Assembly: GCF_024282095.1 (NCBI RefSeq) | Contig: NZ_JAMWZS010000002.1 | Coordinates: 95,523-159,522 of the forward strand | DNA length: 64,000 nucleotides | Source of the DNA: Nitrosomonas sp. | Lineage (GTDB): Bacteria > Pseudomonadota > Gammaproteobacteria > Burkholderiales > Nitrosomonadaceae | Reading direction: 5' to 3' | In this document: positions 5,401-49,353 of the stretch, in pieces | Layout of the letters: each line of letters begins with the position of its first letter | How positions within the stretch are numbered: position 1 is the first letter of the stretch | Program-made: the position numbers and the translations under genes | Notes under the pieces: model-generated | The model's input: the letters and a program-made list of their open reading frames with translations, nothing else | The model's database searches: none | What the model was told of the DNA's origin: nothing

Positions 5401-7079
5401 AAATGGCCCAGGGTGCCAAGCCAGGCGAAGGCGGACAATTGCCGGGACACAAAGTGGATGCGTATATCGGGAAAATCAGACACTCAACGCCCGGCGTCGG
5501 ATTGATTTCACCACCACCGCATCATGATATTTATTCGATTGAGGATCTGGCGCAGCTCATCCACGATCTGAAGAACGCCAATCCCAAGGCGCGCGTCAGC
5601 GTAAAGCTGGTCAGCGAGGTGGGAGTCGGAACCGTCGCGGCCGGCGTCGCCAAGGCCAAAGCGGATCACATCCTGATCTCCGGCGATTCCGGCGGAACGG
5701 GCGCTGCGCCGCTGACCAGCATCAAGTACGCGGGCATCCCGTGGGAACTGGGACTTGCGGAGACACAACAAGTCCTGGTGATGAACAACCTGCGCGGGCG
5801 CGTGACCGTACAGACGGATGGGCACCTCAAGACCGGCCGCGATGTCGTCATCGCAGCGCTGCTCGGGGCGGAGGAATTCGGCTTCTCCACCGGGCCGCTG
5901 ATTGCCTCCGGATGCATCATGATGCGGGTCTGTCATCTGAACACCTGCCCGGTCGGCGTGGCGACTCAGGATCCCGAGCTGCGCAAGAAATTCGCCGGCA
6001 AACCGGAGCACGTCATCAACTTTTTCTTCTTCATCGCCGAGGAAGTGCGGCAATACATGGCTGAGATGGGATTCCGGAAGTTTGAAGACATGGTCGGGCA
6101 GACGCAATTGCTGGAGTTCATGGATGTCTCGAGCCATGACAAGGCGCGTCATCTGAATCTGGACGTGATCCTGCACAAACCCCAGGTCGGTGCGGATGTA
6201 GCCGTTCGCTGTGTGCAAAAGCAAGAGCACGGGCTGGGACAGGCACTGGACAACCAGCTCATTCAGCTGGCGGCACGGGCGATTGAGCGCGGCGAAAAAG
6301 TTACAGCCAACCTTGAGATCCGCAACGTCAATCGCACTGTCGGCACCATGCTGTCGCACCAAATCGCCTTGAAATACGGGCACAAAGGGCTTCCGGACGA
6401 CACGATCACATTCAAGTTCACCGGATCGGCGGGGCAGAGCTTCGGATGCTTTCTTGCTCGCGGCGTCACGCTGATGCTGGAAGGGGACAGTAACGACTAC
6501 CTGGGCAAAGGACTCTCCGGCGGGAAGATCGCCCTCTTCCCGCCGAAGCAGGCAACATTCAAGCCCGAGGAAAACATCATCGCCGGCAACGTCATTTGCT
6601 ACGGCGCAATCGCCGGCGAAGTCTATATCCGCGGCGTCGTCGGCGAACGCTTCTGCGTCCGCAACTCCGGCGCCCAGGCGGTTGTCGAGGGCGTCGGCGA
6701 TCATGGCTGCGAATACATGACCGGCGGGCGGGTCGTCGTCATCGGCCCAACCGGACGCAACTTTGCCGCCGGCATGAGCGGCGGAATCGCCTACGTCTAC
6801 GACGACAATGGCCAGTTTCCGCGCCTGTGCAATACCGAGATGGTGGCACTGGAAAAGCCCGACAAGGATTATGATCGCGAAACGATCAAGATCCTTTTGG
6901 AGAACCACCACAAGCTGACCGGATCGACTCGCGCCAAGGCGATCCTGGACGATTTCGAGAAGGCACTCCACTGGTTCGTCAAGGTAATGCCGACCGACTA
7001 TCGCAATGCACTGGAGAAAATGGGCGAGATTGAAGAAGCAGCCAGGAAGCTCAGCGAGCGCCAGGCGGGCGCAGTGTGA
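2481..7079 (+). CDS. gltB: Glutamate synthase (GOGAT) large/alpha subunit
   Basis: The large subunit transfers the glutamine amide nitrogen to 2-oxoglutarate in the cytoplasm, giving two glutamates, with electrons from GltD. It has 1532 residues from the ATG at 2481. The frame stays open to a TTG at 2439, but family members begin about where MTKGYPPAQG starts. Order: class-II amidotransferase with nucleophile Cys21 (HDSCGVGF), central domain, FMN/2-oxoglutarate synthase domain with GEGGEDSRRF and AKPGEGGQLPGHKV, then the 3Fe-4S cysteine cluster CIMMRVCHLNTCPVG (about residue 1145). The GXGXG-rich beta-helix domain closes the protein. It lies 74 bp upstream of gltD. Its G+C-rich codon use differs from flanking genes, suggesting transfer. 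Confidence 0.97.
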   Translation: MTKGYPPAQGLYDPRFDHDSCGVGFITHIKGKDSHSIVEQSLKMLENMEHRGACGCEPDSGDGAGIMCRMPDKFIRREAKKIGIELPQLGQYGVGMVFLPKDATARKLCEQAMEKVAVDFGMVVLGWRDVPVNAKACGPSPRKVEPMIRQIFVGMGESFYNRQDFDRRLYLVRQRTENTIEFGDFPPQAAEDFYICCLSANRIIYKGMLTAAQVRLYFPDLSDPDFLSSLAIVHSRFSTNTFPSWRLAHPYRYLAHNGEINTLHGNRNWMRARYGSLQSEVFGDELQKMFPILTESGSDSATLDNALQFLCVNGRSLAHAVLMLIPEAWQNHDQMDEDLKAFYEYHACLMEPWDGPASIAFTNGALVGAVLDRNGLRPSRYYVTKDDLVIMASEVGVLPIPPENVARKWRLQPGKIFLIDAKQERIIDDSEIKRQLINKRPWKRWLEQNLIELDNLPAPSKVHQPDHATLMARQRTFGHTHEDLKLIMTPMAVNGAEAIGSMGTDTPLACLSEKPQLLYNYFKQLFAQVTNPPLDAMREELVTSAYTYIGREGNLLDETPDAAHLIKLKSPIISNADLEKLREVAVGKLRAVTLEMLFKVSAGETGLQHALEALMERAAHAVKEGASVLILSDRGVDAGNVPIPSLLATAAVHHHLIRAGTRTQCGLVIETGEAREAHHFCLLIGYGAGAVNPYLSFETLADLDKNELLPNDLNLEKAQYNYIKAANKAILKVASKMGISTVQSYRGAQIFEAIGLGKEMIDRYFTGTASRIKGIELEIIARESLERHRRGFPPIQVNGQVLDTGGLYQWRRDGEYHMWNPETVAKLQDSVRVGVEKPIDGYKKFKEYTALLDDEARSRCTLRGLLNFRKAVNPIPLEEVEPAKEIVKRFVTGAMSLGSISTEAHENLAIAMNRIGGKSNTGEGGEDSRRFQPDPQPDANGNIIFRRSAIKQVASARFGVTAEYLANADELQIKMAQGAKPGEGGQLPGHKVDAYIGKIRHSTPGVGLISPPPHHDIYSIEDLAQLIHDLKNANPKARVSVKLVSEVGVGTVAAGVAKAKADHILISGDSGGTGAAPLTSIKYAGIPWELGLAETQQVLVMNNLRGRVTVQTDGHLKTGRDVVIAALLGAEEFGFSTGPLIASGCIMMRVCHLNTCPVGVATQDPELRKKFAGKPEHVINFFFFIAEEVRQYMAEMGFRKFEDMVGQTQLLEFMDVSSHDKARHLNLDVILHKPQVGADVAVRCVQKQEHGLGQALDNQLIQLAARAIERGEKVTANLEIRNVNRTVGTMLSHQIALKYGHKGLPDDTITFKFTGSAGQSFGCFLARGVTLMLEGDSNDYLGKGLSGGKIALFPPKQATFKPEENIIAGNVICYGAIAGEVYIRGVVGERFCVRNSGAQAVVEGVGDHGCEYMTGGRVVVIGPTGRNFAAGMSGGIAYVYDDNGQFPRLCNTEMVALEKPDKDYDRETIKILLENHHKLTGSTRAKAILDDFEKALHWFVKVMPTDYRNALEKMGEIEEAARKLSERQAGAV

Positions 7080-33733: not shown

Positions 33734-33875
33734 CCAGGCCGTTGAAAAACTATCTGCGTTGCTGCTACGGTGTTAGAAACAGGCTCAAGATGCGCATTGA
33801 TCGCGCATAAGCTGCGATTTCTCGCTTGCTTTTGCCTGTTACCGGCTGCCTCAAAAACGTTTTTCAACGACCTAC
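33734..33875 (-). mobile_element. MITE-1 copy B (142 bp)
   Basis: Full-length element flanked by TA (33732-33733 and 33876-33877), with terminal repeats CCAGGCCGTTGAAAAAC and GTTTTTCAACGACCTAC. It is inverted relative to copy D at 49203. Read on the minus strand it carries the same open frame as copy D (SLKNVFEAAGNRQKQARNRS). It lies just upstream of the efflux channel gene and may have changed its promoter. The rest of the gap 33876-34362 holds one hairpin and no gene that I can support. Confidence 0.88.
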
Positions 33876-43337: not shown

Positions 43338-44618
43338 CTAATAACCCCCGCCTTTACTTCGATCAACATCCACTGCCGTCACCAAGCTGCCACGATTTCC
43401 CCAAGCATTGCGGATATACGACACCACCAGTGCTGCTTCTTCATTACGCAAAATCTGCTGGAACGGTGGCATTCCATAGGGCCGGGGATTTTCCGCCGTT
43501 GTGGGTGGATAGCCGCCATTCAACACACTGCGAATGGCATTCAATGGCGACTTCATCGTCACACTGCGATTACCGGCCAGCGCAGGGTAAATGCCCGGCA
43601 TGCCTTTGCCATCAACGCCATGACATGTTTGACAATATTTTTCATACAGTTGTCCACCCAAATCCAAATGTCTCCGTAAGCTACCCGACATCACCGAGAA
43701 ACTGACACCAGGCGCGTTACCGCTCTCATTTTCTGTAAGTGATTTTAGATACACTGCCATGGCGTGAATATCTTCTTGCGATACATATTGCAGGCTTTGT
43801 CTTATGACAGTGGCCATGGGACCTGAAGCTACGGCGCGTTTTGTTATGCCCGTTTTTAGCAACGTAACGATTTCTTCGATAGTCCAATCACCCACACCCG
43901 CTTCCAGTTGCGAAGACAGGGATGGCGCATACCAATTCATACCCATGATTTGTCCGCCCGTCAGTGCATCATCCTGACCGGCACCTAATACATTGCGAGT
44001 AGTATGGCAGGCATTACAATGACCTAATCCCCGCACCAAATAAGCACCGCGATTCCATGCTTCACTTTGGGATTGATCCAATTGATAAACACCTGCTTTG
44101 AAATACAATGCGCGCCAGATCGCTAATAGCGGTCTGAAATTATAGGGAAAGAAGATATCGTTCGGTGGATTGGATTGCGAAACGGGCGGCAGTGATTGCA
44201 GATAAGCAAAAATCGCATTGGCATCTTGTCGCGTCACCTTAGTATATTCGGTATAGGGAAAAGCAGGATAAAGCAGCCGCCCATCACGCGACTTACCCTG
44301 ATGCAGCGCTTGCCAAAAATCTTCCTCACTCCAAAGGCCAATGCCCGTTTCTTTGTCGGGTGTAATATTGGGTGTCACGAAGATGCCGAATGATGTCGAC
44401 AAGCGGCGTCCACCCGCAAACGGCTGACCACTTTTAGTCGTATGGCATCCCATGCAATTGCCAACGCGGGCTAAATAAGCACCATGCACTACTTGTTGCG
44501 TTCCGGTGGAGCGTTCAGGTTCGTCAGTAATCGTATCTGCAGCAAATACGATACATCCCCATAATAAAGCAATGCATATCCAACTACTGGCCATGAATAT
44601 CATCGTTGGATGCCTCAT
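43338..44618 (-). CDS. Triheme c-type cytochrome, dehydrogenase cytochrome-subunit (AdhB-like) family
   Basis: A 426-residue periplasmic cytochrome with a signal peptide (cleavage near AADT, about 27). Three heme sites lie at residues 55-59 (CMGCH), 201-205 (CNACH) and 329-333 (CQTCH). The repeated pattern (FVTPNITPDKETGIG, LYPAFPYTEYTKVT) is that of the cytochrome subunit of membrane alcohol, gluconate or sorbitol dehydrogenases. No dehydrogenase subunit is encoded nearby, and no C-terminal anchor is visible. Its ATG overlaps the stop of the diheme cytochrome gene by 4 bp, so the two are coupled. It is last in the presumed sigma-54 operon. Confidence 0.9.
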   Translation of the reverse strand: MRHPTMIFMASSWICIALLWGCIVFAADTITDEPERSTGTQQVVHGAYLARVGNCMGCHTTKSGQPFAGGRRLSTSFGIFVTPNITPDKETGIGLWSEEDFWQALHQGKSRDGRLLYPAFPYTEYTKVTRQDANAIFAYLQSLPPVSQSNPPNDIFFPYNFRPLLAIWRALYFKAGVYQLDQSQSEAWNRGAYLVRGLGHCNACHTTRNVLGAGQDDALTGGQIMGMNWYAPSLSSQLEAGVGDWTIEEIVTLLKTGITKRAVASGPMATVIRQSLQYVSQEDIHAMAVYLKSLTENESGNAPGVSFSVMSGSLRRHLDLGGQLYEKYCQTCHGVDGKGMPGIYPALAGNRSVTMKSPLNAIRSVLNGGYPPTTAENPRPYGMPPFQQILRNEEAALVVSYIRNAWGNRGSLVTAVDVDRSKGGGY

Positions 44619-45337
44619 TTTGCACCTCCGTTTTCCAGAATGTTTTGGCTGCAGCGATGCGCCAGTTCAGGTGAAAGCACACTGAATGGACTTGGTTTTC
44701 CTGAAACAAATTGACTCGCCAGCCATTTCGCAATCGCATTGGCTTCTTCGTCAGTCAACTGCTGTGCAATCTCAGACATGCAATCCGCTGTTTGACCCCG
44801 CATAATGCCTCCGTTACGCCATCCGCCGAGCTGTGCAGTAATATACGCGCGAGACAATCCTAGCAAACCCGGAATAGCGGGCTCCACGCCCATCAAAATA
44901 TCTCCATGACAGGCGTTGCATGCCGGAATATTCTTCTCTGGATTTCCCGAATAGATAAGCCGCTCTGCCAGCTTGATTTCTTCGGGTTGCATGTGAATCT
45001 GCTCAGGTGCTGGATAGGGCAACTGTAGCGCAGAAAAGTATTGGGCTATTTCCAACAAGTACTCGTCTGTCATATTTTCCAGCAGAATGGCCATCGGCTG
45101 ATAATAGCGCCGAGCATCTCTGAAATTGCGTAACTGATTAAACAAATATCCCTGGGGTTTACCCGCTATGCGAGGATAATAGGCATCGCGCCCTACTTTA
45201 TCCTCAGCGCCATGACAAATGATACAAGCCTTAACGCGCTCAGCCATCGTATCAGGCACTTCGACCGGTGTGCCGCCATGAACATTAGCCACACAAGTGA
45301 TACAGAAAAATACCAATAGAATGAAGCAGCGCATCAT
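44615..45337 (-). CDS. Diheme c4-like cytochrome c
   Basis: A 240-residue periplasmic cytochrome with a signal peptide (FILLVFFCITCVANVHG). The two class-I heme sites CIICH (38-42) and CNACH (140-144) are about 100 residues apart, as in cytochrome c4. Each half repeats the pattern (Y)PRIAGKPQGYLFNQLRNFRD / IPGLLGLSRAYITAQLGGWR. It would carry electrons between the triheme cytochrome and a membrane or terminal partner. It starts 23 bp after the barrel gene ends and overlaps the triheme gene. Confidence 0.92.
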   Translation of the reverse strand: MMRCFILLVFFCITCVANVHGGTPVEVPDTMAERVKACIICHGAEDKVGRDAYYPRIAGKPQGYLFNQLRNFRDARRYYQPMAILLENMTDEYLLEIAQYFSALQLPYPAPEQIHMQPEEIKLAERLIYSGNPEKNIPACNACHGDILMGVEPAIPGLLGLSRAYITAQLGGWRNGGIMRGQTADCMSEIAQQLTDEEANAIAKWLASQFVSGKPSPFSVLSPELAHRCSQNILENGGAK

Positions 45338-45360
45338 TTAGGATTTCCTTGTCTAATTTA

Positions 45361-47151
45361 TCAAAAACGGATGTTGTACTGGACATAAAAAAGATCAGGC
45401 GAAATTCCCGGGACTTGTTTTTTCAGGAAATCACCACTCCACATTTTTGAATAGCCAATCAGTACATCTTGATGGCGGCTCACATGCAGGTTTAGTCGGA
45501 AATCAACTTCGTCCCCGACATGACTACCTGACTGACCTGTAATGTCTCTGAGTGTGGCCAAGCCAGCGGCGTTATACAAATAATCACGATCATTCGCCAG
45601 ATAGAATCTATGGTACTGGGAAATAAAGGTAATCCATGGCATTGGATGTAAGGTAAATTGTGCATTAATATCATGCATATTTTGGCGCCCAACCCGGTCC
45701 AGGAAACCTAAATAATAATGACCGAATGGAAAAAGTTGATTGAATGTATTGCTTCTAGCATCGGTAGAGTTGCTGTCACCAGATGCGAAATCATAACGTA
45801 TCCAACCTTGCGGGTTCATCGGCAGCGGCAAACGGTAACCTACACCAGTGGCTACGGCAAAAGCAGAAACATCCAGGTTGGACCGTTGACCAAACTGATA
45901 CATCCCTTCCAATTCATACAGGAAATTGTCAAAATTTCCAGCAAGACGGCTACCTAACGTATGAACATGGGAATTACCTTGCAGAATATTTCCCGTCAAT
46001 ACACTGGCTGCGCCTAGATTACGGTTGTTTTCCAGACTCAGGAAGTAGAGATCAATCAAGTGACCCGGTTTCGGTTTATGAGTAGCCCACAAACCATAAA
46101 AATTCTGTTGCGTATCCCAATTATCAAAATTACCTTTTTCGGTAATCATCGGACGTACCCAGAATGCATCAACATCCCATTCAGGTGTACGCCAGAAAGT
46201 TTTTACCCCTTGAAAGGTTCTACGGGTGTTGACCCAGTCCAAAGTGGAAATCAATCTTTGTGAACCATATAATAATTCTTGCCGCCCTACGCGAACATAA
46301 ACGGGACCATTATTCACATTGGCCAGTTTGATATCGGTGAACAGATTTAGCATATCGGTATGGTTCCTATCCGTCGCTAACGGAGGTAAATCAGCGCCGA
46401 GGATACGAGCGTCAATAAATTCAGCAAATAATCGCACCTTATCCCGATACCATAAATCCGCGTGAAATCGTGTACGTAGCAAATGAAAACTATTGTCAGT
46501 ACCGGCTGCATTTAAACGACTGTCTGTTTCATTCGTGTAGCGATACCAGAAATTACCGCCAAAAGCCAGCAACCAATCACTACCCAAATGCATTCTCTTG
46601 ATCGGATCAAAAATATCTTTTTCGTGCCCCGCAGTATCCAGGTAACGAAAGTCGATGTCGTAGGCTGGCGTAGTCATTAGTGCAAAGGGTGCATAAGGCG
46701 CAACCGGTGGTTTCTCACGCTTGTTACTCGTGACCATGTCCCAGAATGAGTAATAACCGGATCCAGTGGGAGGCAACATGAATAAACCGGGACGCGATGC
46801 TGCAGTGACTGGCGGTACTTTTGATTTATCAAAAACTCCGCTCGCTGTGCTGGTTGCAGCAGTTGCCGTGGCTGGTGCAGTGGCTGGCGTATTGGTATTT
46901 GCCGGAGATGGATTCGTCGCATGCGCCTGGAAAATCAGGCACATCATTCCTACAAAGCTGATTTTAAGTAATGATCCGCGAATACTTATTAGCAGAATCT
47001 TCTTTGTTCGTACAGTAGTCACCAATGAAGGTGTGAATAAGTTATTTTTTTCATCAATTAAATTTCCTTTGATTTTGTAAGACTGTTGATACCAATGATA
47101 AGGCCAAGTTTCAATAAAGCGGTTACAGCATTGTATCCACAAAAAAATCAT
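45361..47151 (-). CDS. Alginate_exp-type outer-membrane beta-barrel protein
   Basis: 596 residues. After a signal sequence (about 49-77, ending QAHA) and an Ala/Thr/Pro-rich linker comes a barrel of the alginate-export family: WLLAFGGNFWYRYTNETD, FHADLWYRDKVRLFAEFID, VYVRVGRQELLYGSQRLIST and RTFQGVKTFWR, with C-terminal FYVQYNIRF. Such barrels pass sugars or other solutes, and none is proven here. The ATG at 47151 has an excellent AGGAGAAGG site. This leaves a 48-residue extension before the signal core, and a GTG or TTG near 47022-47025 is an alternative start. It is first in an operon with two cytochromes, behind a sigma-54 promoter. Confidence 0.85.
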   Translation of the reverse strand: MIFLWIQCCNRFIETWPYHWYQQSYKIKGNLIDEKNNLFTPSLVTTVRTKKILLISIRGSLLKISFVGMMCLIFQAHATNPSPANTNTPATAPATATAATSTASGVFDKSKVPPVTAASRPGLFMLPPTGSGYYSFWDMVTSNKREKPPVAPYAPFALMTTPAYDIDFRYLDTAGHEKDIFDPIKRMHLGSDWLLAFGGNFWYRYTNETDSRLNAAGTDNSFHLLRTRFHADLWYRDKVRLFAEFIDARILGADLPPLATDRNHTDMLNLFTDIKLANVNNGPVYVRVGRQELLYGSQRLISTLDWVNTRRTFQGVKTFWRTPEWDVDAFWVRPMITEKGNFDNWDTQQNFYGLWATHKPKPGHLIDLYFLSLENNRNLGAASVLTGNILQGNSHVHTLGSRLAGNFDNFLYELEGMYQFGQRSNLDVSAFAVATGVGYRLPLPMNPQGWIRYDFASGDSNSTDARSNTFNQLFPFGHYYLGFLDRVGRQNMHDINAQFTLHPMPWITFISQYHRFYLANDRDYLYNAAGLATLRDITGQSGSHVGDEVDFRLNLHVSRHQDVLIGYSKMWSGDFLKKQVPGISPDLFYVQYNIRF

Positions 47152-47211
47152 AGCATCCTTCTCCTATTTTAAAATATCTGAACTCATAAACTTTCATTTC
47201 CAGAATATATT

Positions 47212-47229
47212 TAGCATTAACCATGCCAA
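47212..47229 (-). promoter_or_regulatory. Sigma-54 (-24/-12) promoter of the barrel-cytochrome operon
   Basis: Read on the minus strand, TTGGCATGGTTAATGCTA matches the sigma-54 consensus TGGCACG-N4-TTGCW at all but two positions. The invariant GG and GC are exactly ten bases apart. The start of transcription would fall near 47200, about 50 nt before the gene's ATG and upstream of its AGGAG. A sigma-54 activator gene lies divergently 109 bp away. Confidence 0.75.
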
Positions 47230-47231
47230 AA

Positions 47232-47247
47232 TTAATATCATGATTAA
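47232..47247. promoter_or_regulatory. Palindromic A+T-rich site between sigma-54 promoter and activator gene
   Basis: ATCATGAT (47237-47244) is a perfect palindrome framed by TTAAT and ATTAA. It lies between the -24 element and the activator gene, and so is at most a weak candidate for the activator's binding site. Upstream activating sites usually lie 80 or more bp from the promoter. Confidence 0.25.
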
Positions 47248-47337
47248 TATACATTTATTATAAATTTACAGAAACAATAATTTGTGATTGTCAATATTTT
47301 GAGATAGAATTCACAGAAATTTGAGAATCATTTTGTA

Positions 47338-49173
47338 ATGATCAATACTTTTAAAATACTATTCCAAGATTCCCCCTTGTTTCTTGCGATGATGGATGAC
47401 ACACTGATTTGTCGCGAAATCAACCAAACCTGGCGCAACTATCTGAATTTTGGCACAACAGACACAGTTACCTTGTCTGTCGAAGAATTATTCGATGACT
47501 TGCATAATGAATCCGCACTTCTGAGTCAGATCAAACAAGTGGCACATGAAGGCCATGTGATAAAAGAAATTCCGGCTACTTTATTAACCAAGCATCATGC
47601 TATCGAACTATCACACCGGGGATTATTATCGGCCTGGCGCGTGCAACCGGCGCATGATAAGCAAGTTTGGGTGTTATTGGTATTCAGTGATATCACTGGA
47701 TACAGTCAAACATCCAATGAATTGCGGCGCTTACAAACCATTCACGAATTGATCCTGAATGCGGCCGGAGAAGGCGTCTACGGAGTGGATTCCCAAGGCA
47801 ATACCATCTTCGTTAACGAAGCTGCAACTCAAATATTGGGCTGGCGTGGCGCCGATGTGATCGGCAAACCATTACACGACATCCACCATCATTCCTATCC
47901 TGACGGTTCACCTTACCCAAGTAGCGAATGTCCGATTTATGCAGCCATCAAAGACGGCAAAGTGCATCATGGCGATGACGAGGTTTTTTGGCATACCGAC
48001 GGTACTGCAGTTCCTGTTGAATATACCAGCACACCGATTCTGGAAGACAATAAACTCAAAGGAGCAGTAGTTATCTTCCGGGATATTACTGAGCGCAAAA
48101 AGAACGAGCAGCAGCGTGAAATCGCCTATGAGCAGATCAAGATCCTGAAAGATTTGCTAGAAGATGAGCGTGACTATCTACGTGATGAAATCAATATCAC
48201 CATCAACTTCGGTGAGATCATTGGCGAAAGCCAAGCCTTAAAACGTACGCTTGCCCAAATTGAAGCCGTTGCCAAAATGCCGACAAGTGTGCTGATTCTG
48301 GGTGAATCAGGTGTTGGAAAAGAAATGGTTGCACGTGCAATTCATGCAAATAGCACCAGAGCTGACAAGCAACTTGTGAAAGTAAATTGCGCCTCTATCC
48401 CAAAGAATCTTTTTGAGAGCGAGTTCTTTGGGCATGTACGCGGATCATTTACCGGCGCTCATCGCGACCGGGTCGGACGTTTTCATCTGGCTGCAGGCGG
48501 CACCCTGTTTCTTGATGAAATCGGTGAGATCCCTTTGGATTCACAAGGAAAATTATTACGCGTATTACAAGAGCATGAATTTGAACGCGTGGGAGATGAT
48601 AGAACGATCAAAATTGATGTACGCATTATTGCGGCAACCAACCGTGATTTAAAGGCTCAAGTCGATGCCGGGCGGTTTCGTGAAGACTTGTATTATCGCC
48701 TAAGTGTTTTTCCTATCGAAGTACCGCCATTGCGGGAGCGTGTCAAAGATATCGGCCCGTTAGCCACCCATTTCCTGGATAGCATCTGTACAGAACTGGG
48801 GCATGACGCTTTATCATTGACCCAGCAACAGCTGGATAGCTTGAGTAAATATCATTGGCCGGGCAATATCAGGGAGCTCAAGAACGTCATTGAGCGAGCT
48901 GTCATTCTTACAAAAGGCAAGCGACTCCGACTCGATCTTGCGATGCCCGGCAATCATGAAACCAAGCAAACCCAGGTATATATACCATCCGAAGAAACAG
49001 CGTTCGTAACAGACGCCGTTTTTCGTGAGAAAGAAAAAATAAACATGTACGCGGCCTTACAACACGCAGACTGGCGTATATCCGGTACAGACGGTGCCGC
49101 GGAACTACTGGGCATTAAGCCTTCTACATTTGCTTACCGGATGAAATTATATGGAATTCAGAAACCGGATTGA
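47338..49173 (+). CDS. Sigma-54-dependent transcriptional activator with PAS sensor domains
   Basis: A 611-residue enhancer-binding protein. Two PAS-type domains occupy residues about 1-130 (weak) and 135-260 (clear, ending VIFRDITERKK). A coiled linker and the AAA+ domain follow: Walker A GESGVGKE (322-329), sigma-54 contact loop GSFTGA (369-374, where most activators have GAFTGA), Walker B GGTLFLDEIGE and arginine-finger region FREDLYYRLSVFPIEVPPLR. A Fis-type helix-turn-helix ends the protein (AAELLGIKPSTFAYRMKLYG). It has no receiver domain, so it senses directly through PAS. It is divergent from the operon it probably controls. Confidence 0.93.
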   Translation: MINTFKILFQDSPLFLAMMDDTLICREINQTWRNYLNFGTTDTVTLSVEELFDDLHNESALLSQIKQVAHEGHVIKEIPATLLTKHHAIELSHRGLLSAWRVQPAHDKQVWVLLVFSDITGYSQTSNELRRLQTIHELILNAAGEGVYGVDSQGNTIFVNEAATQILGWRGADVIGKPLHDIHHHSYPDGSPYPSSECPIYAAIKDGKVHHGDDEVFWHTDGTAVPVEYTSTPILEDNKLKGAVVIFRDITERKKNEQQREIAYEQIKILKDLLEDERDYLRDEINITINFGEIIGESQALKRTLAQIEAVAKMPTSVLILGESGVGKEMVARAIHANSTRADKQLVKVNCASIPKNLFESEFFGHVRGSFTGAHRDRVGRFHLAAGGTLFLDEIGEIPLDSQGKLLRVLQEHEFERVGDDRTIKIDVRIIAATNRDLKAQVDAGRFREDLYYRLSVFPIEVPPLRERVKDIGPLATHFLDSICTELGHDALSLTQQQLDSLSKYHWPGNIRELKNVIERAVILTKGKRLRLDLAMPGNHETKQTQVYIPSEETAFVTDAVFREKEKINMYAALQHADWRISGTDGAAELLGIKPSTFAYRMKLYGIQKPD

Positions 49174-49202
49174 TTCTGTTTATTCAACACATAAAGTCCT
49201 TA

Positions 49203-49344
49203 TCAGGCCGTTGAAAAACGTTTTCGAGGCAGCCGATACCAGGCAAAAACAGGCGAGAAAGCGCAGTTTATGTGTAATAAATGAGCATTTTGAGCCTGTT
49301 TTTAACACCGTAGCGGCAACGCAGATAGTTTTTCAACGGCCTGT
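49203..49344 (+). mobile_element. MITE-1 copy D (142 bp, best-preserved)
   Basis: The terminal inverted repeats CAGGCCGTTGAAAAAC and GTTTTTCAACGGCCTG are perfect. TA (49201-49202, 49345-49346) flanks both sides, and TTAT can also be read as a four-base duplication. Internal marks are CAGGCGAGAAAGCGCAG and TAATAAATGAGCATTTTGAG. It occupies most of the 180-bp gap between the convergent activator and cytidylyltransferase genes. The element contains no transposase and must be moved in trans. Confidence 0.9.
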
Positions 49345-49353
49345 TATAGATCC

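Follow-up and report, generated by a model that had tools for sequence, protein, structure and literature searches.

AdhB-type triheme c-type cytochromes are subunits of membrane dehydrogenases (PDB 8hdd, 8gy2, 7w2j), cytochrome c4 is a diheme protein (6q2u, 1etp), AlgE of Pseudomonas aeruginosa is an alginate exporter with an 18-stranded fold (3rbh, 4azl), and divergent sigma-54 activator systems combine an upstream repeat, a -24/-12 promoter and an AAA+ activator. Here we describe a locus of the ammonia-oxidizing bacterium Nitrosomonas sp. in which likenesses to all four meet, within a 64,000-nucleotide stretch of contig NZ_JAMWZS010000002.1 (hereafter the window; positions count from its first letter). 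A triheme cytochrome (TRI) has the same three hemes as the AdhB type and strong sequence similarity to it, a diheme cytochrome (C4) is c4-like, as are cytochrome c4 and part of 5lo9, an Alginate_exp outer-membrane barrel (BAR) has the predicted 18-stranded fold of AlgE, and a divergent PAS/AAA+ sigma-54 activator (S54) shares the repeat, promoter and activator arrangement. Judged from its conserved sequence elements, the locus is a genuine sigma-54-type operon uniting two independently conserved modules, the channel and the cytochrome pair. None of the open-access titles and opening abstracts listed in our searches describes it.

Features of the locus, in window coordinates
Feature	Position	Strand	Details
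TRI, triheme c-type cytochrome, AdhB-like	43338..44618	-	426 aa; three CxxCH; Pfam Cytochrom_C
C4, diheme c4-like cytochrome	44615..45337	-	240 aa; two CxxCH
BAR, AlgE-type 18-stranded outer-membrane barrel (predicted)	45361..47151	-	PF13372 1.1e-115; AF2 and Foldseek
-24/-12 sigma-54-type promoter TGGCATGGTTAATGCT (candidate)	47213..47228	-	pattern match
Inverted repeat TGTGAATTCTATCTCA, putative activator binding site	47300..47315	-	starts 87 nt upstream of promoter
S54, PAS-AAA+-Fis sigma-54 activator, divergent from BAR	47338..49173	+	Sigma54_activat 3.3e-72 and PAS

A preliminary description, made from the letters of this DNA, had proposed this layout, and all four open reading frames (ORFs) are where it placed them, with the cytochrome genes overlapping by 4 bp as calculated from the coordinates. 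BAR and C4 are separated by 23 bp, and the true start codon of BAR is uncertain. The description had also remarked that the operon encodes no dehydrogenase subunit, and in the ORF list and Pfam matches no dehydrogenase gene adjoins the operon within the window.

Control elements and the sigma-54 activator

S54 carries the motifs GSFTGA (a variant of the GAFTGA-type loop), GESGVGKE and GGTLFLDE, which are the AAA+ loop and Walker motifs, together with a Fis-type helix-turn-helix, the set of features by which a sigma-54 activator is recognized. A single PAS region exceeds the cut-off (residues about 138-254), and by eye residues 1-130 resemble another PAS in degenerate form. Among the matches listed (25 of 36), S54 stays under the curated cut-offs of the NCBIfam regulators. 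The canonical TTGC form of the -24/-12 promoter is not in the window, and the candidate promoter ahead of BAR draws its weight from the upstream repeat and from conservation, and none from the pattern match alone: a looser promoter pattern, written after the site had been seen, occurs 4 times in the window at one mismatch or fewer with 4.57 expected, which is not above chance. All 11 S54-adjacent loci examined contain TGWGA-N6-TCWCA (0-1 mismatch) 87-89 nt upstream of TGGCAYR-N5-TG(C/A). Across 68 loci (1.85 million strand-bases), this strict promoter was found in 41 rows, not all of them distinct because the loci partly overlap. The repeat, at two mismatches or fewer, lies 84-92 nt upstream in 14 of the 41; all 14 are S54-adjacent with a spacing of 87-89 nt, and they come from the window, from genomes G026, G010, G015, G004, G033 (one site, seen in loci L099, L049 and L107), G027 (two sites), G020, G011 and G019, and from locus L110. 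Because the repeat consensus was taken from the same loci, the positive count is not independent, and the other 27 rows, which lack the upstream repeat, serve as the control set. Locus L110 retains both the repeat and the promoter, and BAR is reduced there to a 5' remnant ahead of C4-TRI.

Where C4 has no neighboring S54 (n = 19, 300 nt upstream each), the best GC-type site scored 9.5 and none reached 10; the rate of GC-type promoter sites across the Nitrosomonas loci, S54 loci included, was 0.055 per kb of strand. No GG-N10-GC site occurs in the 470 nt ahead of the core BAR copy elsewhere in the genome. At up to one mismatch, the repeat alone is found at 6 places in the window's own genome, compared with 0 for the reversed-pattern control, and only the window repeat has a correctly spaced promoter, leaving no other candidate operon for the same control at this threshold. 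RpoN was matched in 60 of 61 genomes. The preliminary description had assigned the operon to sigma-54, and this control is well supported as a prediction by the paired repeat and promoter at every S54-adjacent locus examined and by the 27 promoter rows that lack the repeat. We also observed a small exported-looking EF-hand ORF between the sigma-54 promoter and BAR in G027, G019 and G004; the G027 copy (L043 12396-12683) has a Pfam match, and the copies in the intergenic regions of G019 and G004 were recognized by eye.

The C4-TRI pair and its possible electron partners

C4, with two c-type hemes and a c4-like sequence, belongs with cytochrome c4 (PDB matches 6q2u, 2.8e-18, and 5lo9, 1.8e-17), and TRI, with its three c-type hemes, resembles the AdhB type in sequence (8hdd_B, 9.8e-78, aligned to 30-428 of 482). 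The two are closely linked: C4 stands beside TRI in 33 of 33 fetched Nitrosomonas loci (in L074 it is cut by the contig end), and TRI is beside or fused to C4 in 17 of 18 loci from other families, the eighteenth contig stopping after C4. In six of 12 loci (L078, L147, L165, L167, L168, L169) the pair forms one ORF with five CxxCH motifs, eight of the 12 having been chosen for long frames. Of the 399 genomes of the order, 70 contain C4 at E < 1e-47 by our count from the listing, well separated from the next match at 1.6e-31.

The C-terminal membrane helix of AdhB-type subunits is not found in TRI. The 56 of 60 TRI proteins grouped as C4-paired end 94-104 residues past the last heme motif and none has a strongly hydrophobic stretch there (maximum, 1.49), whereas two dehydrogenase-linked TRI proteins, the rows on which this contrast is drawn, continue for 136-139 residues and contain a stretch scoring 2.56-2.72. 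Two oxidase-linked proteins have a C-terminus like that of the C4-paired ones. In a tree of 33 of the 60 proteins, the 29 C4-paired rows are split off from the others by a branch supported at 100/99. From these features we infer that TRI is soluble and periplasmic. Our tentative view is that C4-TRI may be an undescribed pentaheme electron carrier of the periplasm that is widespread in the order and has no dehydrogenase dedicated to it, and that in some Nitrosomonas, joined to an extra channel under a PAS/sigma-54 switch, it may form a conditional respiratory branch.

The preliminary description had suggested that a solute enters by the barrel and is oxidized by an enzyme encoded elsewhere. In such a system the solute would be organic, and a periplasmic dehydrogenase would pass electrons to TRI and C4. 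TRI is indeed homologous to the cytochrome subunits of glucose, alcohol, fructose and aldehyde dehydrogenases, and GMC matches occur in 8 of the 25 genus genomes searched. The proposal is not supported for the window's own genome: this genome (99.97% complete) has no GMC_oxred_C match, its three PQQ_2 matches all fall within one 411-aa frame, which we take for BamB by its size, and it thus offers no GMC or quinoprotein dehydrogenase candidate, molybdenum dehydrogenases not having been searched for. In addition, the membrane helix is missing from TRI, which groups apart from the dehydrogenase-linked rows in the tree, and among 3403 ORFs from 81 loci, homologues of GMC and FAD-SLDH appear in L079 and L082 only. 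There are few neighbors in common around the pair. In the genus, the neighbors examined (Pfam, ten proteins only) include FtsH, LysR, a peptidase, a decarboxylase and others, and a zinc alcohol dehydrogenase, taken to be cytosolic, and an esterase lie a few genes away. In 20 loci outside the genus, Pfam at 1e-12 identified 18 of the 39 flanking ORFs, among them one zinc alcohol dehydrogenase, one FAD_binding_3 protein and one SoxYZ-like protein, and no GMC, PQQ or molybdenum dehydrogenase was found among these 18. The SoxYZ-like carrier (L155 of G288, 5903-6751) directly follows TRI, belongs to an NCBIfam quinoprotein-dehydrogenase-associated family (216.6 bits; cut-off, 140) and is followed by an OMP_b-brl protein; it favors a dehydrogenase partner at that locus and weighs against a blanket reading without dehydrogenase, although none was found among the four further genes tested in L155. 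Taken together, a dehydrogenase partner for C4-TRI is unlikely, and we regard solute oxidation through such an enzyme as rather improbable. The one hint of an oxidase partner comes from triheme TRI paralogues that close COX2-COX1-COX3 clusters in two Nitrosomonas genomes, G018 (L080, by Pfam) and G035 (L081, by clustering).

The barrel and the distribution of the four genes

The AF2 model of BAR (pLDDT 80.7, pTM 0.81) has 18 main strands by our own count and was built from a more diverse set of 27 rows trimmed at the N-terminus, where 8 similar sequences had given pLDDT 38.2. The first 17 Foldseek matches of the model are all AlgE, and BAR is placed in the AlgE/Alginate_exp group by PF13372 over the cut-off and this predicted fold. 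About 80 residues ahead of the barrel are conserved and mostly modeled with low confidence. A second BAR copy in the same genome lies on G000:C28 (85%), and the window BAR is a further copy of this genus-wide gene, whose product is predicted to be an AlgE-like channel. At 1e-25, the BAR profile matched 9 of 369 genomes of the class, the window's own and one of the same genus among them. On a 24-row tree, 5 changes are required to account for the S54-linked BARs, and the two BAR copies of G020 are identical across the compared part, which suggests exchange between BAR copies. Another Alginate_exp barrel of the same genome is preceded by a gene for a P-II-like protein (L012 6607-9125).

The preliminary description had offered a second possibility, that barrel and cytochromes act jointly in electron transfer at the outer membrane, which would make them a conduit across it. 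The operon shared in six of the 37 genus genomes fits this idea, as do a c4-type shuttle proposed for iron oxidisers and an electrode activity reported for N. communis (PMC5371394 and PMC10415592, respectively). However, BAR is modeled as an AlgE-like 18-stranded channel, and in most cases its gene lies apart from the cytochrome genes. C4 and TRI appear to be soluble, and the operon has no extracellular cytochrome. We therefore consider such a conduit very improbable.

In a set of 37 Nitrosomonas genomes (the window's own and 36 others), TRI orthologues (E < 1e-160) are present in 33 and absent or weak in G005, G006, G014 and G032, BAR (E up to 1e-30) is present in 35, all except G003 and G014, and S54 orthologues (residues 1-294, E < 1e-100) are present in 10. 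All four genes share one contig in six: the window's own genome, G027, G033 (whose S54 runs off the contig), G020, G019 and G004. A seventh, G026, probably has the set as well, because its BAR pieces end contigs beside S54 and beside C4-TRI. The preliminary description had staked its reading on conservation of the four genes together, and this was half refuted: the full set recurs, but C4-TRI and BAR are each nearly genus-wide. The four genes do not form an obligate unit. S54 adjoins both modules, BAR without C4-TRI (G010, with C4-TRI at a separate place) or C4-TRI without BAR (G011, with BAR at a separate place). Outside the 37 genomes, L110 has C4-TRI-S54 and the BAR remnant, and Nitrosomonas sp. 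Nm84, whose C4 is the best named match in one scan (93% identical), has BAR-C4-TRI on a contig that begins in BAR. G015 was considered as a further case of S54-BAR without C4-TRI and is not countable, as one contig begins inside BAR next to S54 and another stops inside C4 next to TRI.

This distribution also bears on a simpler explanation, in which an S54-promoter-BAR unit landed upstream of C4-TRI so that the barrel and the cytochromes share their expression and nothing else. The S54-BAR of G010, which sits without C4-TRI among genes that flank the lone BAR of the window's own genome (by eye), fits such a capture, as does the independence of C4-TRI from S54 and BAR elsewhere. On the other hand, S54 also accompanies C4-TRI without an intact BAR (G011, L110), and six genomes carry all four genes together. 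We judge regulatory capture unlikely, if less so than the two proposals above.

Past the end of S54, the window contains a short MITE-like element (49201-49346) bounded by inverted arms of 19 nt (49201-49219 and 49328-49346), the end sequence of which recurs at 33735 and, with 2 mismatches, at 33859 (region 33735-33874).

Proposed mechanism and comparison with known systems

We propose that a sensor-activated operon supplies an additional outer-membrane channel together with a soluble pentaheme electron carrier that has no dehydrogenase of its own, and hold this mechanism as a whole to be somewhat better than evenly probable. The PAS region of S54 would sense a signal, S54 would bind the inverted repeat and activate sigma-54 polymerase at the candidate promoter, and BAR, C4 and TRI would be transcribed together. 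BAR would then be a solute channel of the AlgE type in the outer membrane, supplementing the core copy, and C4 and TRI would form a soluble five-heme periplasmic carrier. This carrier would shuttle electrons between the cytochrome pool of the periplasm and a further enzyme, for which a terminal oxidase or reductase is the most plausible candidate. In this way the operon may couple outer-membrane permeability to added electron-carrying capacity in the periplasm.

Several observations weigh against this mechanism, in addition to the SoxYZ-like neighbor in L155. The -12 element reads GA instead of GC in four of the 11 S54-adjacent loci (G019, G004, G011, G026), and S54 is present in G004 (75% complete), the one genome in which RpoN was not matched. 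S54 is missing from 27 of the 37 genomes, so its control is a lineage-specific overlay. BAR copies adjoining cytochromes do not form a clade, which also favors regulatory capture, and the BAR of G033 has a different end and has lost the last strand region. Finally, the oxidase link comes from TRI paralogues outside the C4-paired clade.

For ammonia oxidisers, the proposed mechanism provides a regulated electron-carrier operon that can be tested and whose candidate control sites are mapped, and it draws attention to a widespread cytochrome pair. Compared with the AdhB type, TRI is paired with C4, lacks the C-terminal membrane helix and forms its own clade, in a genome that yielded no GMC or quinoprotein-dehydrogenase candidate. 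Unlike cytochrome c4, C4 has a triheme partner, and it forms its own group, sharing only 26-38% identity with the weaker c4-like matches in the order. BAR and AlgE are comparable at the level of the predicted fold, with 12-15% identity, and BAR has the conserved segment ahead of the barrel. Compared with the divergent sigma-54 activator systems named at the outset, S54 has a PAS sensor region and, as predicted from its control sites, targets a barrel together with cytochromes.

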